48,281 bases of DNA. It comes from SAR86 cluster bacterium (GTDB lineage: Bacteria; Pseudomonadota; Gammaproteobacteria; Magnimaribacterales; Magnimaribacteraceae). The translations under genes and the position numbers were made by a program. Of this stretch, positions 23,472-45,051 are shown piece by piece; the stretch's first letter is position 1; each line of letters opens with the position of its first letter. The DNA lies in contig JADHSF010000001.1 of NCBI GenBank assembly GCA_016777005.1, forward strand, positions 169,029 to 217,309, read 5' to 3'. Below the pieces are notes generated by a model. It was not told the DNA's origin and ran no database searches. It saw nothing but the letters and a program-made list of their open reading frames with translations.

Positions 23472-23948
23472 CTAATCAGTAGGTGGATTCTCTGCTTGCA
23501 GCAAAACTTCTTCCGGTAAATTAAAGGCACCTCTTTCTAGAGTCCATATATTTGCTATTTGATCTGTTCTAAGCTCAGAATATAAGTGAGGAAAAGCGCT
23601 TTTTCTTTTTCCTTCGTTCGGGTAAGGCTCTTCGAACAAAATCTTATCGTTATCAATCTTCCCTAAATCTAACTGAAGAAGAAAAACTTCATCAGAGTCT
23701 TGAAAATAAAAGGATAAAGTTGTCGCAAGCTGCACAGCAGTTGAAAGATGAATGAAACCGTCTTCATTATCTAAGTCAGTGATTATTTTTCCCGTATCCG
23801 AGGCAGCTTCCCACTCCTTTGCTCTTAGCACCTTGTAAACTTTATTCGTCATTGAAAATTCCTCATTAGTTCCTGGGTCCTCTGTCTCATAAGCCAAAAG
23901 AATAGATGAAATTAATAGGTTAATTAATAAAAGAGCTTTAATCCTCAT
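23472..23948 (-). CDS. DUF952 domain protein
   Basis: The core (about residues 36-150) has the DUF952 pattern: KVYKVLRAKEWEAASDTG, DGFIHLSTAVQLATTLSFYF, a central LLQLDLGKI strand and FPHLYSELRTDQIANIWTLE. The function of DUF952 is unknown. From this start there is a signal-peptide-like beginning (MRIK, about 15 hydrophobic residues, then AYETEDPG), and the ATG overlaps the end of the marR gene by 11 nt. However, a good GAGGA lies 8 nt before an internal ATG at 23852 (MTNKVYKV), which would give an ordinary cytoplasmic protein of 126 residues. The start is therefore undecided. Confidence 0.75.
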   Translation of the reverse strand: MRIKALLLINLLISSILLAYETEDPGTNEEFSMTNKVYKVLRAKEWEAASDTGKIITDLDNEDGFIHLSTAVQLATTLSFYFQDSDEVFLLQLDLGKIDNDKILFEEPYPNEGKRKSAFPHLYSELRTDQIANIWTLERGAFNLPEEVLLQAENPPTD

Positions 23949-24441
23949 TCAAGATTTCGTCTGGTGCTTCATTTAATCCGCCATAGTCTAGGATTGGAGC
24001 AGCATCAATTTCTTCTGCACCTATGAATTGGGCAACACGCTGTAAGCAAGAAACAATCATACTCTGCTCCCAATCATTCAAGCTTGAAAATTGTTCTTTA
24101 AATTTATCTTGTAAAACATCAGGTGAGGATTCAAGAATTTTGAAGCCCTGCTCAGTAATATTCAAATACTGAATTCTCTTATCATTGATACCTTTTTCTC
24201 TTGTGATTAAATCATTAGAAAGTAACTTATTAATCACGGTAGCAATGGTTGTATGCCTGAGAGTTGTTATATAAGAAATATGACTTGGAGTGGTATGCTT
24301 TTTATTGGCAATTATCTGTAAAACAATATGCTGCGTAGGGGTCAATTGTGATTTTTTAGCTAAAGAGAGTGAATTAATCTCAGTAGCGCGCATCACTCGC
24401 CTTATAGCAACCAAGGCCTCTTCAAGATGATTATCTTCCAT
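23938..24441 (-). CDS. MarR-family transcriptional regulator
   Basis: The 167-residue protein fits a winged-helix MarR regulator: an N-terminal dimerisation helix (LEEALVAIRRVMRATEINS), LTPTQHIVLQII, the recognition region HISYITTLRHTTIATVINKL (about residues 54-73), and the wing LITREKGINDKRIQYLNITEQG. The C-terminal tail (EEIDAAPILDYGGLNE) lies outside the fold. It overlaps the neighbouring small membrane protein gene and the DUF952 gene by 11 nt each, so it is part of this operon and may control it. Its ligand is unknown. Confidence 0.9.
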   Translation of the reverse strand: MEDNHLEEALVAIRRVMRATEINSLSLAKKSQLTPTQHIVLQIIANKKHTTPSHISYITTLRHTTIATVINKLLSNDLITREKGINDKRIQYLNITEQGFKILESSPDVLQDKFKEQFSSLNDWEQSMIVSCLQRVAQFIGAEEIDAAPILDYGGLNEAPDEILNED

Positions 24442-24664
24442 TAATTTCTATCCTTTTTTGCGGATCATAAATTTCTATATAGATGCCGCGCAATAAACTT
24501 ATAGTTGCAGCAATCAAAATAAATATAAAAGGTGCTGCCATATAAATTAATAATAAGCATATAGAAGCGCCTCCGAAGAGTGATATATTTTTGCTTGGTT
24601 TGAAGACCATTAAAAGACAGATAAGGAAAATTATTATTGATGCTAAGTAAAAACTAAATTCCAT
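24431..24664 (-). CDS. Small two-segment membrane protein, unknown
   Basis: I do not recognise this 77-residue protein. It has two hydrophobic stretches (about residues 4-20 and 30-58, the second long enough for one or two passes) joined by FKPSKN, and a charged tail EIYDPQKRIEINGR. The gene overlaps marR by 11 nt and follows the linalool dehydratase-like gene by 30 nt, which supports it being real. It probably sits in the inner membrane. Confidence 0.6.
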   Translation of the reverse strand: MEFSFYLASIIIFLICLLMVFKPSKNISLFGGASICLLLIYMAAPFIFILIAATISLLRGIYIEIYDPQKRIEINGR

Positions 24665-24694
24665 AATTAAAATTAAATTTTAAGATTGAGATAT

Positions 24695-26356
24695 TCAACA
24701 ACATGCACAAGAATTTAAACCAGAAGGAAGAATCAACCGTGTAGTTACTCCTGATGATTGTGATTGAGATTGTTGATTGATTTGTTCATTTATAACGAGT
24801 TGCTTACTAAGTCTCTGTTCTGATTCTTTTGACAAAAAGTAACCTGTTTCTATTTCAAACTGATGATGCCTAATATCAGTATGAATGAGTATTTCGGAAG
24901 AGCTTAATATTTCAAAATTTCTGAAGTCGATACCGTCGCATATAATTTTTATCTTACTGGTATCAGGGATATTAATTACTTCTATAGAAGTTAATTGATT
25001 TGATTTTGTTTTATCTCCATCAAGAATATTAAAGTAGAGCTTTCCTTTTTGATCATCATGGTTAGCTTTACTTATATATAAAGAAGGAAAATCAATGCCC
25101 TGAATACTTGGAGAATAATACTTAGTAAAATTTGGTTTATTAAAAAGATTTTCCCAAGAATCTACTTCGCAAACTTCTGCACACATCGCCAGAGCAGATA
25201 ACTGTCCTCTAGGCCAGCTCTCTCCAAGATTGAACCAAAAACCAAACTGGCTATCGTTTGGACCAAAAAAACGTGGTTCAAAGTTTTCTTCAGCATGTTT
25301 TTTTAGTCGCTCATAAGTAATCTGATCATCAAATTCTTTTGATACGGTTAGGCCTAAAGCAAACATACGTGGGTCAGGCATAAATTCATTTGATATAGGG
25401 ACTGCAGGATTATCCCAACCCAGAAATTTCACCGCTCCTCTATAGAGTAGTTCTGCAAATTGCGGATCTTGAGGTTTGGCATAGAAAGCAACTGCAAGGC
25501 CATGCGGAGGTAAAGTTCTGTGATGGTGATTCTTTATTTGATCAAAATACATGGTGACCCACTGCAAAGATCCATCTTTATCAAATCCGTAATATTTATC
25601 TTTAGTAAAAGAGAGCCAATCTGAGTAGGCGCTGTGATAATTATTACCAAAAACCTTGTCATACATCATCAAACCCAAGCCAGCAGCCGATAGACAAAAA
25701 GGCCAAGCTTTAGTATTTTCGCAATGAGGTCCCATTGGAGTCTTAGTCCACTGTTGATGAAGGTGATCAGCTAGCTGATGTTGGGTCCACTCAAATTTAG
25801 AACGGTAGGCTCCTGAAAGGCTAAATGGTGAAGACCATTTATCATACCCACTTACATAAGTATGAAGGGCTTGAGTTAGGTTTAGCCAACCTTTAAAAAA
25901 AAGATTTCCGTCAGCACCGATTGGATCCATTTGAAAACCCCATGGAGCTATTCCGTTTGCAGTCCATCCTGGTGCATCGTAATTTCCCCAAAATTCTTCA
26001 GGTATTAATGTGCCCTTCCAAGATTCAGGATAATCTTTTCTGTCAGGATCGTGACCAAATTGAGAGAGCCAATCAACAGCAGCCCAGTAAGTAATTGAGC
26101 GTTCGGCTATTTCATCAAGTATTTCAGAATAAATCTCTCTCCATGCAGGAGTTTTATCTGCCATTAGGCCTATTGCATAAGTAGATTCCTGAAGATCAAA
26201 TCGAGGAAATGAACACATAGGGGCAGTAGATGTTTGGTCCCACCATTCATTGGGGGTTCCATCTTCAGTCCAATCATCCGGCGTAGTGGCTTTGAGATAT
26301 AAAAAGTTTAACCATCCTTGAGCTCTTTCATTTAATTCAGGATGTTTACTTTGCAT
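24695..26356 (-). CDS. Linalool dehydratase/isomerase-like protein
   Basis: The 553-residue protein resembles, from memory, the (alpha,alpha)6-barrel of linalool dehydratase/isomerase (LDI) of Castellaniella. Matching stretches are DPIGADGNLFFKGWLNL (144-160), CENTKAWPFC (212-221) and MMYDKVFGNNYHSAYSDWL (about 230-248). LDI uses an Asp and a Tyr six apart, a His, and two Cys nine apart. Here D54/Y60 and C212/C221 keep those spacings, but the KGH histidine is KGW (W157). There is no signal peptide, unlike LDI. A C-terminal extension of about 130 residues ends in SCACC. It lies in an operon with a GST and an acyl-CoA ligase. The substrate is unknown. Confidence 0.65.
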   Translation of the reverse strand: MQSKHPELNERAQGWLNFLYLKATTPDDWTEDGTPNEWWDQTSTAPMCSFPRFDLQESTYAIGLMADKTPAWREIYSEILDEIAERSITYWAAVDWLSQFGHDPDRKDYPESWKGTLIPEEFWGNYDAPGWTANGIAPWGFQMDPIGADGNLFFKGWLNLTQALHTYVSGYDKWSSPFSLSGAYRSKFEWTQHQLADHLHQQWTKTPMGPHCENTKAWPFCLSAAGLGLMMYDKVFGNNYHSAYSDWLSFTKDKYYGFDKDGSLQWVTMYFDQIKNHHHRTLPPHGLAVAFYAKPQDPQFAELLYRGAVKFLGWDNPAVPISNEFMPDPRMFALGLTVSKEFDDQITYERLKKHAEENFEPRFFGPNDSQFGFWFNLGESWPRGQLSALAMCAEVCEVDSWENLFNKPNFTKYYSPSIQGIDFPSLYISKANHDDQKGKLYFNILDGDKTKSNQLTSIEVINIPDTSKIKIICDGIDFRNFEILSSSEILIHTDIRHHQFEIETGYFLSKESEQRLSKQLVINEQINQQSQSQSSGVTTRLILPSGLNSCACC

Positions 26357-26362
26357 AGGTCG

Positions 26363-26977
26363 TTATACCTTTGAACTGGCTCTGGATAGTATTTGGTTAT
26401 GCCACCTATATAGTTCCGTTAGGCTCTCAGAAGGTTTGAGATTAACCATGCTGGATGCAAAATCAATAGCTGAAAGCAGAGTAATATCCGCAACTGTATA
26501 TCTATCGCCAGCTGTAAATTCAGATGATGAAAATTCTTTATTTAATCTTTCGTAATAGACCTCAACATTCTTATCACTAGCCTTCTTGGCGTCAGGAATT
26601 TGATTAAAAATTCCCATTGCACCTACTATAGGTCCATTCACCCAAGAAGTTCCGATTTGGCTCCAGAGCTCGAGTTCTATGAATCGATTTCTACTCTCAA
26701 TAAAAGAAATTTCAAAAGGATCTTTTCCAAATAAATTAGGCTCAGGGACTAAGCTTTCAAGATATCTACAAATTGGAATTGATTCTGCAATACATCTACC
26801 ATCATCAAGCTCTAAAACTGGAATCTTTCCACTAGGATTTTTGCTTAAAAACTCTGGCGACTTATGCTCTCTTTTTGCCATATCGCAGTTAATCAGATCT
26901 AAGGTGATATTTTTTTCTTCAGCAAAAATTTTTACTCTTCTAGGATTAGGCGCTCCAGGAAAATCATATAGTTTCAT
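26363..26977 (-). CDS. Glutathione S-transferase family protein
   Basis: The 204-residue protein has a thioredoxin-like N-terminal domain (MKLYDFPGAPNPRRVKIFAEE, with NPSGKIPVLELDDG at about residues 47-60 and AESIPICRYLE, the glutathione gamma-glutamyl site) and an all-helical C-terminal domain with the GDRYTVADITLLSAIDF capping motif. It probably conjugates or isomerises a small electrophile using glutathione. It lies 6 nt before the LDI-like gene and 4 nt after the acyl-CoA ligase, so it is probably part of the same pathway, possibly handling an epoxide or unsaturated intermediate (inference). Confidence 0.9.
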   Translation of the reverse strand: MKLYDFPGAPNPRRVKIFAEEKNITLDLINCDMAKREHKSPEFLSKNPSGKIPVLELDDGRCIAESIPICRYLESLVPEPNLFGKDPFEISFIESRNRFIELELWSQIGTSWVNGPIVGAMGIFNQIPDAKKASDKNVEVYYERLNKEFSSSEFTAGDRYTVADITLLSAIDFASSMVNLKPSESLTELYRWHNQILSRASSKV

Positions 26978-26981
26978 ATTT

Positions 26982-28526
26982 TTAACTTATCGCCGGTGCA
27001 TCAGAGCCAATGAGCTCTTCTCTTAGAGTTCGCTTTAAAACCTTTCCGGTAGCATTTCTTGGCAATGCTTCAATAAACTTTACAGAATAAGGAACTTTAA
27101 ATTTAGCCAGGTTATCTATGCAGTGCTGAATAACATCTTTTTCATCAATACTTTCGCCTGCCTTTAAGCTAATGAATGCTACCCCCGTCTCCCCCCATCT
27201 GTCATCTGGAACTCCTATAATTGCTGCCTCTGCAATCTGAGGAAGTTGATAGAGAACATTTTCAATTTCAGCTGGATAAACATTTTCTCCTCCTGAAATA
27301 TACATATCCTTCCATCGATCTACTATATAAATAAAACCTTCATCATCAAATCTTGCGGCATCTCCTGTCTTCAGCCAATCTTCTTCGAAAGAACTTTTGG
27401 TAGCTTCAGGATTATTCCAATAGCCTGGAGTAATATTTGGCCCTCTTATATAAAGTTCTCCAACCTCCCCCCAGGGAAGCTCTTTGCCTTCTTCATCAAC
27501 AACTTTGACCTCAGTGTGCAGAAGTGGCTTGCCTGCAGACCCAAGTTTCCTCTCTGCATCTTCTGCGGGAAGCCCTATGCCTCCAGGGCTAGTTTCTGTC
27601 ATGCCCCACCCTTGAATCATTGATACCCCTCTGTCTGACCAGGTTTTTAAGATGGCCTCCGCGCAAGGTGCTCCACCAATTCCAGCTATCCTGAGACTAG
27701 ACAAATCCGTCTTGTCAAAATCAGGATGATTCATCATGAATTGATAAGGAGCCGGAACAGCAAAAAAATGAGAAACTTTATACTCTGAATTACCTAAAAT
27801 GGATAAAGCCTGTCCTGGATCAAACTCCCTGATAAGAATTAATTCACCACCGTTATGTAAAACGGGGTTAGCGTAACAATTCATTCCTCCAGTATGAAAA
27901 AGAGGCAGCACAACCAATTGAACGGAATCTGATGAAACGAAGGCTGGAGAGGCTAGATTGATTACATTATAAAGTTGCATTTGATGATTAATCATTGCTC
28001 CTTTAGGGTGGCCCGTCGTTCCGGAGGTATACATGATCATAATGAGGTCTTCTTGATCAATCTCAGGCTGGTCGTAAGTATGATTAGATTCAGAAAGTGT
28101 CAACTCGTATTGGCTATTTGGATCTTCCTTATTTATTTCTAAAGAATCAGAAATGCTGCAATCAGAGACAAGGTCATTAGATATTTCAGAAAAGGAGTGA
28201 TCATAGATAATTACTTTGGGGGTACTATCATTAATAATGTATTCAAGTTCTGGCTTTGTTAATCTCCAATTCAAAGGCAGTTCTATTGCACCTATCTTGG
28301 CACAAGCAAATTCAAGCTCAAAAAATTCTGCACAGTTTTGAGATAAGATAGCTACTCTATCACCTTTCTCCACTCCTGCTTTTTGTAACCAATTTGCTAA
28401 AAGACAAGCCCTATCATCAAGTTCTTTATAAGTAAGTAACTGATTTGAGCTCAAGTCTCTAATAGCTACTTTATTTGGCCTTACATAAGCATGATATGCA
28501 GACCAATCGTAATGTTTAACAGCCAT
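26982..28526 (-). CDS. Acyl-CoA synthetase (AMP-forming)
   Basis: The 514-residue protein activates a carboxylic acid to its CoA thioester through an acyl-adenylate. It shows the P-loop MYTSGTTGHPKGAMINH (about residues 164-180), GWGMTETSPGG (A5 motif), the hinge DEGFIYIVDRWKDMYISGGE and the C-terminal catalytic lysine in PRNATGKVLKR. The sequence type is that of medium- or long-chain fatty acid ligases; the exact substrate cannot be read. It is the first enzyme gene of this minus-strand operon, followed 4 nt later by the GST gene. Confidence 0.93.
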   Translation of the reverse strand: MAVKHYDWSAYHAYVRPNKVAIRDLSSNQLLTYKELDDRACLLANWLQKAGVEKGDRVAILSQNCAEFFELEFACAKIGAIELPLNWRLTKPELEYIINDSTPKVIIYDHSFSEISNDLVSDCSISDSLEINKEDPNSQYELTLSESNHTYDQPEIDQEDLIMIMYTSGTTGHPKGAMINHQMQLYNVINLASPAFVSSDSVQLVVLPLFHTGGMNCYANPVLHNGGELILIREFDPGQALSILGNSEYKVSHFFAVPAPYQFMMNHPDFDKTDLSSLRIAGIGGAPCAEAILKTWSDRGVSMIQGWGMTETSPGGIGLPAEDAERKLGSAGKPLLHTEVKVVDEEGKELPWGEVGELYIRGPNITPGYWNNPEATKSSFEEDWLKTGDAARFDDEGFIYIVDRWKDMYISGGENVYPAEIENVLYQLPQIAEAAIIGVPDDRWGETGVAFISLKAGESIDEKDVIQHCIDNLAKFKVPYSVKFIEALPRNATGKVLKRTLREELIGSDAPAIS

Positions 28527-43512: not shown

Positions 43513-45051
43513 CTACCAGAATCGCTTCTTTACAAGGTTCCTTTGAATTTTTCCAGTAGGTAGCCTTGGAAGCTCTTCACTCCAGAATTCAAATGTTTTG
43601 GGCTTTTTAAAACCTGACAACTTCTCATCTGACAACTTCACCAATTCTTTAAGCACTGTATCTTGATCTGCTCCTGATTCAAGATTGATAATGGCTTTTA
43701 TTTCTTCTCCCCATTCTTCATTTGGTACACCTACACAACAAACCTCTGCAACCGCATTATGCATAAGGAGAACATTATCAATTTCTTGAGGGTAAATGTT
43801 AGTACCTCCAGAAATTATCGTATCTGCGCTTCTACCAGTTAGAAAATGATAACCATCTGAATCACAATAACCTATGTCTCCCATCGTAAAATAATCTCCC
43901 CAATAGGCTCCAGATGTCTTTTCTTCAGCTTTGTAATATTCAAATCTTCCTGTTGAGGGAGCGCTAAAATAAATAGTTCCTTCTTGCCCTAGTTCGACTT
44001 CATTAAATTGTTCATCAAGAATTTTGACTTCAGTTCCTTCATTAGCCTGACCTACACTTCCAGGTTTATTGAGCCATTCTTCAGGCTGAATAAAACAGCC
44101 TCCCCCTTCAGTGGCGGCGTAATACTCATATACGATTGGTCCCATCCAATCGATCATGGCTTTTTTAACTTCCACCGGGCAAGGTGCTGCTCCATGTAAG
44201 ATCCATCGCATCGATGAAATATCATATTTAGATTTTATTTCTTCAGGAAGTCTAAGCACTCTGTGGAACATGGTGGCAACCATATGAGTATGAGTACATT
44301 TATACTCACTAATGAGCGATAGCATTTTCTCAGCATCCCATTTATCCATCAAATAAACTCCCACTCCTGCCATCAATGAGATGTTTATATTTAATCCTAA
44401 AGGCGCTGCATGATAAGCAGGACCTGGACAGATACTGAAGTCATTTACGGGATCAAATGAAGCAGTATCTAGGGTGAATTGTTCAGTCTTTGAAGGTGGA
44501 GGATTCTCTTTTCTAAAAACACCTTTCGGTCTACCCGTTGTGCCAGATGTATAAAGCATAGAACGTCCTGGTTCAGGAGTTTCAACATCGGATCCATCAT
44601 AGTTTTGAATGGTTTCTAGGAATGGTATTGCCAAAGGATTCTCTCCATCGACTGACATTAAAATAACATCAGGTAAATTTTTACTTATCTCCTCGAAGAA
44701 TTCTGAAAAGATTGCATCACAAAGAACTACTTTAGCTTCACAATTCTCTACGATGTAACACACCTCTTCTGCTGTGAGATGCCAATTGATTGGAGTAATT
44801 CGAAGCCCTACTCTTATAGGACCGAACAAACCTTCTAAAAATTCAGGTCTATTTTTGCATACGATCGCAACTGCATCACCGTTCTGCAAACCCTTTTCTT
44901 TTAGGAATTTTGCATAACGATTTGAGTTAGCATTTAATTCCATAAAAGTTCTTTCACCATACTCACTAACAATGGCTTTTTTATCAGGAATATTTTTTGC
45001 ATGGAAAGCGATTCCCATGCCTAAGGCTAAATGTTCTTGTAAGGTTTCCAT
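43513..45051 (-). CDS. Acyl-CoA synthetase (AMP-forming), second copy
   Basis: The 512-residue ligase of the ANL superfamily has the P-loop LYTSGTTGRPKGVFRKE (about residues 167-183), YYAATEGGG (A5), the hinge SDGYHFLTGRSADTIISGGT and the catalytic lysine in RLPTGKIQRN. It differs clearly from the ligase at 26982-28526 and so is not a recent duplicate. It starts directly after the oxygenase gene with no gap, so the acid it activates may come from, or be the substrate of, that oxygenase. Confidence 0.92.
   Translation of the reverse strand: METLQEHLALGMGIAFHAKNIPDKKAIVSEYGERTFMELNANSNRYAKFLKEKGLQNGDAVAIVCKNRPEFLEGLFGPIRVGLRITPINWHLTAEEVCYIVENCEAKVVLCDAIFSEFFEEISKNLPDVILMSVDGENPLAIPFLETIQNYDGSDVETPEPGRSMLYTSGTTGRPKGVFRKENPPPSKTEQFTLDTASFDPVNDFSICPGPAYHAAPLGLNINISLMAGVGVYLMDKWDAEKMLSLISEYKCTHTHMVATMFHRVLRLPEEIKSKYDISSMRWILHGAAPCPVEVKKAMIDWMGPIVYEYYAATEGGGCFIQPEEWLNKPGSVGQANEGTEVKILDEQFNEVELGQEGTIYFSAPSTGRFEYYKAEEKTSGAYWGDYFTMGDIGYCDSDGYHFLTGRSADTIISGGTNIYPQEIDNVLLMHNAVAEVCCVGVPNEEWGEEIKAIINLESGADQDTVLKELVKLSDEKLSGFKKPKTFEFWSEELPRLPTGKIQRNLVKKRFW

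Follow-up and report, generated by a model that had tools for sequence, protein, structure and literature searches.

A linalool dehydratase/isomerase-superfamily protein with a C-terminal cysteine tail in a SAR86 operon

Linalool dehydratase/isomerase (LDI) is a homopentamer with its active site between subunits, and it turns over linalool, geraniol and myrcene. In the literature searched, the LDI-type enzymes with demonstrated activity are LDI and Lis. The active-site residues of LDI are D38, Y44, H128, C170 and C179 (PMC12455561), and the site sits between two subunits and requires C170 and C179 in reduced form, the enzyme being oxygen-sensitive (PMC6600392). Lis, from Thauera linaloolentis 47Lol, has an LDI-like cytosolic domain and is active when reduced (PMC4791888). 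Here we describe a relative of these enzymes encoded in a window of 48,281 nucleotides (the whole stretch of DNA analysed; contig JADHSF010000001.1 of assembly GCA_016777005.1, positions 169,029 to 217,309) from a SAR86 cluster bacterium, the genome of which (G000) is a 1.2 Mb assembly of 51 contigs with a completeness of 82.6%. SAR86 is an abundant, uncultivated marine lineage. Our best explanation, towards which we lean while granting it slightly less than an even chance, is that the protein belongs to the LDI superfamily, resides in the cytoplasm and, as part of a catabolic module that also comprises a glutathione S-transferase (GST) and an acyl-CoA ligase, uses cysteine-based, cofactor-free acid/base chemistry to convert a hydrophobic alcohol or alkene of the isoprenoid type. 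The gene and the parts of its product are as follows.

24695..26356, minus strand: LDI-superfamily protein, 553 residues plus stop, a single intact open reading frame of 553 codons
25121..26356, minus strand: predicted (alpha,alpha)6 barrel of 12 helices, residues 1-412 (AlphaFold2 model, pTM 0.82)
24842..25120, minus strand: C-terminal beta-sandwich domain, residues 413-505
24710..24841, minus strand: linker, residues 506-549 (pLDDT about 30-43 from residue 521)
24698..24709, minus strand: C-terminal CACC (CxCC tail)

The protein is matched by Pfam PF18566 (Ldi) at 50.8 bits, against a curated cut-off of 26.1, and its identity to LDI is 18% over 326 aligned residues. The AlphaFold2 model, which predicts one chain alone, has residues 29-51 and 124-150 of the barrel at low confidence; LDI chains superpose on model residues 1 to about 413, and LDI is the closest fold in the structure list, about 10 Z units ahead of the sugar enzymes. 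An (alpha,alpha)6 barrel closest to that of LDI is accordingly a prediction with good support, in line with a preliminary description made from the letters of this DNA, which had proposed both the kinship with LDI and the fold. On the same model the linker is probably disordered from about residue 521. As judged from hydropathy alone, the N-terminus lacks a hydrophobic stretch of the kind expected of the signal peptide of a periplasmic LDI, and across all 553 residues there is no membrane-like stretch comparable to the four-helix N-terminal anchor of Lis. The protein is probably cytoplasmic, as had also been suggested.

The active site was compared residue by residue across the 25 rows of alignment A3 and in a 22-sequence MAFFT alignment comprising 14 long-form, three LDI-clade and five Lis-like sequences, with five of the 18 SAR86 orthologs, the window protein included. 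These three groups are those of a 32-sequence tree, in which the long-form split is supported at 99/99 and the tree program flagged long deep branches. The residues concerned are the following.

25721..25723, minus strand: C212, the equivalent of LDI C170 (Cys in 25/25 A3 rows and 22/22 alignment rows)
25694..25696, minus strand: C221, the equivalent of LDI C179 (Cys in 25/25 A3 rows and 22/22 alignment rows)
25886..25888, minus strand: W157, at the position of LDI H128
26195..26197, minus strand: D54, Asp at the position of LDI S66
26177..26179, minus strand: Y60, opposite the final Tyr of the LDI segment KYSIAFYAYG and not opposite LDI Y44

The Cys-Glu...Cys element of LDI (C170/E171/C179) recurs as C212/E213/C221 and is kept in all 22 aligned sequences, which bears out the catalytic cysteine pair of the preliminary description; we infer that C212 and C221 act like their LDI counterparts. 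The same description had seen a change of the catalytic His to Trp. A Trp does stand at the LDI His position, but the direction of change does not hold, since His is confined to the LDI clade, in LDI and the two sequences nearest to it, and the other 19 of the 22 have Trp (10), Tyr (6) or Phe (3). As a unique mutation the His-to-Trp change was rejected, with Trp, Tyr or Phe present elsewhere in the alignment. W157 may shape the pocket and take no part in proton transfer. The pairing of D54 and Y60 with LDI D38 and Y44 also failed: D54 falls on S66 in hhalign and in two MAFFT runs, and D38 and Y44 precede the LDI segment with which D54 and Y60 align, so that on the aligned sequences the earlier match is a coincidence of spacing. 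The D54 position is itself occupied by Asp in all 14 long-form sequences, the window protein included, by Ser or Pro in the three LDI-clade sequences and by Gln in the five Lis-like ones, and D54 (or E213) may supply the acid that D38 gives in LDI.

Opposite D38 itself the window protein has Ala in two MAFFT alignments, N17 in a hand-made register and G14 in an ungapped register from W29, none of them Asp, and the predicted helix 10-24 is devoid of Asp in this and all other SAR86 rows. The homologues L111, L112 and L114 have an Asp in helix 1 (position 21, and in L111 and L112 also position 10), so for those sequences the helix-1 register, which is uncertain, matters. Opposite Y44 stands Trp or Thr by MAFFT, or Y20 in the ungapped register from W29; Y20 is replaced by His, Trp or Asn in several relatives. 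The capping disulfide C48-C101 of LDI has no counterpart, Thr being aligned at both positions. With neither the LDI His, nor a helix-1 Asp, nor the C48-C101 pair, the protein has the changed active site that had been anticipated.

The CxCC motif stands close to the C-terminus in 21 of the 25 A3 rows, in 20 of them at the exact chain end; the rows without it are L009 (RGCC), L061, L128 and L113. It is likewise found near the C-terminus in 21 of the 23 rows of a long-form subclade (18 rows of which are from SAR86), the exceptions being L009 and the Streptomyces protein P0003, which has no tail; in G105, 12 residues follow the CACC. Because the 18 SAR86 rows are close relatives, independent support for the tail comes from SAR86 and four other genomes. 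Compared with the homologues from those four, the barrel is 49% identical and the sandwich 28%; the figure is 6% for linker residues 506-536, 23% for residues 537-549 and 88% for the final four. Within the SAR86 genome a CxCC-ending pattern gave six matches and the reversed control pattern three. Two of the CxCC matches have a real stop, namely the LDI-like gene and an 86-codon frame, and the LDI-like gene alone is a plausible open reading frame. A genome-wide sorting signal is not supported by this pattern count, taken at the completeness given above.

How the enzyme might operate can be sketched as follows. The C212/C221 pair would run a dehydration/hydration or a hydroxyl shift, with D54 (or E213) as the acid in the role of LDI D38, and the active-site thiols would have to remain reduced. 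Since LDI is oxygen-sensitive and needs C170 and C179 reduced, the tail on its long linker might assist thiol re-reduction, with glutathione or thioredoxin, by analogy to ribonucleotide reductase, whose C-terminal cysteines pass electrons to the active site (PMC5704485). The conserved cysteine tail might in this way keep the enzyme working in oxygenated water. The proposal in its full form, in which a CxCC swinging arm re-reduces the cysteine pair through glutathione or thioredoxin, a reaction type of anaerobic terpene degraders runs in surface-ocean cytoplasm and D54 is a new catalytic acid, is a speculation that we think rather unlikely to be right.

The genes around the LDI-like gene in the window are these.

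26363..26977, minus strand: GST, 6 bp upstream of the LDI-like gene (Pfam GST_N 2.3e-16; nearest PDB entry yeast Gtt2, 7.1e-29)
26982..28526, minus strand: acyl-CoA ligase, 4 bp upstream of the GST gene (Pfam AMP-binding 2.9e-98; nearest PDB entry a fatty-acyl/feruloyl-CoA synthetase, about 1e-112)
23938..24441, minus strand: MarR-type regulator (Pfam MarR 1.2e-7), at the far end of the operon in relatives
23472..23948, minus strand: neighbouring DUF952 protein (Pfam 8e-20)

In LDI-positive genomes of the SAR86 genus g1 the order acyl-CoA ligase-GST-LDI, then a short-chain dehydrogenase/reductase (SDR) and a VOC/glyoxalase gene, was found in 8 of the 10 loci read; the window genome and its near relative G001 have no SDR and VOC/glyoxalase genes after LDI. 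The same order occurs in two of three g4 loci, the third being cut by a contig end within SDR. Where the contig continues, the next genes encode a TonB receptor, a TPR-sulfotransferase, a BCCT transporter and MarR, with the locus read up to MarR in G004 and G018 and up to BCCT in G011 and G017; in G003 the TonB-to-MarR genes are absent at the locus, and in the window genome the whole block from SDR to BCCT is missing between LDI and MarR (24441-24695). RNase R, RlmB, LpxC and SecA lie divergently on the opposite side.

Seven g1 genomes are LDI-negative. In G005, G010 and G015 SDR-VOC-TonB-TPR-BCCT-MarR comes straight after the acyl-CoA ligase, and GST and LDI are the only two genes absent; in G008 the ligase is missing too and SDR comes after RNase R. 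The ligase is kept in three of these four readable loci without GST-LDI. The contig of G006 ends inside GST, and the RNase R locus was not found in G002 and G012. Across 35 genomes of the family f1, 20 have both the GST ortholog (at least 69% identity) and LDI, four GST only, one LDI only and ten neither (Fisher p 5e-5, uncorrected for relatedness and with mostly incomplete genomes); the corresponding g1 counts are 12, 1, 0 and 6 (p 2.6e-4). In g1, GST and LDI are gained or lost jointly, as a unit within a catabolic operon. When the G014 contig (L025) is set against window positions 24695-28526, ligase and GST are 98% identical and the LDI-like protein just 81%, a drop that possibly marks a recombination breakpoint. 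The window also holds a second acyl-CoA ligase-type open reading frame (43513-45051), about 30% identical to the operon copy.

The protein was found in 21 of 61 relatives searched, all 21 among the 35 genomes of its own family f1 (three as short fragments), and in none of 26 genomes of other SAR86 families. PF18566 occurs in 18 of 203 genomes of the order, 6 of 369 in a class sample and 3 of 398 in a phylum sample (G000 counted each time), and in none of 14 control genomes. Of 36 genomes in the order to which G150 belongs, 18 match A1, and five of these have near-full-length long-form copies. The 23-row long-form group (98/95) unites all 18 SAR86 rows with G105, G978, G949, G970 and Streptomyces. 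The Streptomyces homologue, on a megaplasmid (NZ_CP108633.1, where it is a 'hypothetical protein', and NZ_CP109560.1, where it is without annotation), is 39% identical over 500 residues and shares RGWLNL and both cysteines; it differs in having no CxCC tail and in being preceded by a protein of about 200 residues of unknown function instead of a GST. Genes for such proteins (L058:14336-14953, L148:8036-8623, L149:4756-5367 and L150:8465-9067) immediately precede the LDI-like gene, both in Streptomyces and in three gammaproteobacterial genomes; they gave no Pfam match (3 of 4 tested) and no PDB match. In G233 (L062, L063) the matches of two LDI-like genes are split over more than one reading frame, reflecting broken genes or sequencing errors, and contig C14 of G034 (L069, L014, L023) has two inverted, equal-scoring copies of the locus, perhaps an assembly palindrome.

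Outside SAR86, the gene after the G105 homologue encodes a P450 whose nearest match is P450terp (1cpt, 4.7e-128); an epimerase/SDR and a zinc alcohol dehydrogenase come next, AtuA lies divergently upstream, and FMO-like flavoproteins (Pfam), presumably of the Baeyer-Villiger kind, lie near the homologues in G978, G949 and G970. By guilt by association these neighbourhoods favour isoprenoid catabolism. The tailless LDI-like gene of G150 is directly followed by one for a CobW-type GTPase (L061:7230-7862), a kind of protein that often serves as a metal chaperone.

Which substrate the protein serves can be weighed along several lines. That the protein (de)hydrates or isomerises isoprenoids that are larger or cyclic, such as alpha-terpineol/limonene or sterol and other isoprenoid side chains, is a possibility we take seriously while doubting it: the P450terp-type enzyme beside the G105 homologue and the monooxygenases near three others fit it, as does the acceptance by LDI of longer alkenols, up to C13 (PMC12455561), but this context varies with the genome, none of it comes from the SAR86 operon, and the substrates of the neighbours are deduced from family alone. 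That the protein resembles LDI or Lis in all respects, interconverting linalool, geraniol and perhaps myrcene, with its residue changes neutral drift, seems quite unlikely. Superfamily and fold are indeed common to them, all five Lis-like homologues have Trp or Tyr at the His position, and Lis, only about 20% identical to LDI and differing in dehydratase activity, still interconverts linalool and geraniol (PMC4791888); the long-form clade, however, is separate from both on its long branches and is marked by an Asp invariant within it (D54) and by further conserved blocks, and no linalool-pathway name appears among the SAR86 operon genes scanned. Improbable, finally, is a barrel descendant that is no dehydratase, for example a binder of hydrophobic ligands or a sugar isomerase-like enzyme; D38 and H128 are not retained and the structure list holds many (alpha,alpha)6 sugar epimerases and glycosidases, but the invariant CE...C and the distance of LDI above those enzymes argue otherwise.

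The tail admits another function, as an element binding metal or anchoring to a membrane or partner and not as a reductant, which we judge unlikely. Three clustered cysteines could bind Zn, Cu or an Fe-S cluster, the available literature on the 'CXCC motif' largely concerns metal proteins, COG0523 chaperones among them, turnover in class II ribonucleotide reductase is mediated by a zinc finger domain rich in Cys (PMC5704485), and the CobW-type GTPase adjoins a homologue, albeit a tailless one. A short tail at or near the chain end behind a non-conserved linker suits a swinging arm better, and its restriction to one plausible open reading frame in the SAR86 genome speaks against general sorting or lipidation. 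Several observations weigh against the isoprenoid reading that we prefer. The chemistry may differ, since nothing equivalent to D38 or H128 of LDI is present; the tail is dispensable in the family, being absent from three long-form homologues and from the Streptomyces protein; and of the 35 f1 genomes, four carry the GST ortholog but no LDI and one the reverse. GST was not found beside LDI in the SAR86 genera g2, g3 and g5, where the LDI-like gene is located elsewhere among varied neighbours (a CYP153-like P450 in g2). Gene neighbourhoods also vary outside SAR86, with AtuA in 4 of 11 homologue-bearing genomes searched (a set outside which the window genome lies) and in one of the four non-SAR86 tail-bearing genomes, G105. 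The TonB receptor and the BCCT transporter (betaine/carnitine/choline type) of the SAR86 operon would fit a polar or zwitterionic compound more readily than a simple monoterpene.

SAR86, further Gammaproteobacteria and Streptomyces thus also have the LDI fold and cysteine pair, set among different surrounding residues. Should the protein prove to (de)hydrate terpenoids, it would indicate isoprenoid use in the ocean and provide cytoplasmic alkene-hydration enzymes, and the CxCC tail raises the testable question of how a thiol-dependent, oxygen-sensitive catalyst survives in aerobic cells. SAR86 appears in no title among the literature mentioning 'linalool dehydratase', most subscription papers lying outside that search, which makes it a weak guide to what is in print.

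In comparison with LDI (LinD) of Castellaniella defragrans (EC 4.2.1.127 and 5.4.4.4; PDB 5i3t, 5hlr and 5g1u), the window protein shares the predicted barrel, the Cys-Glu...Cys element and the K-G-x-L-N-L segment, and differs in having no signal peptide, W157 for H128, no helix-1 Asp, D54 for S66, Thr opposite C48 and C101, and an added beta-sandwich, linker and CxCC tail. From Lis it is set apart by the absence of the four-helix membrane anchor. The Lis-like L030, L031, L056, L116 and L118, putative Lis orthologs, resemble it in their Trp or Tyr at the His position and differ by Gln at that of D54; L030, L031 and L056, read to their ends, have no CxCC tail. The likeness to ribonucleotide reductase would be one of mechanism only, a proposed relay through C-terminal cysteines in an unrelated protein, with CxCC here in place of the reductase pair. 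The protein is not LDI proper, as it has no signal peptide, no disulfide and neither Asp38 nor His128; it is an LDI-superfamily enzyme of a probably cytoplasmic clade that bears the tail, and it likely works in a way related to LDI.
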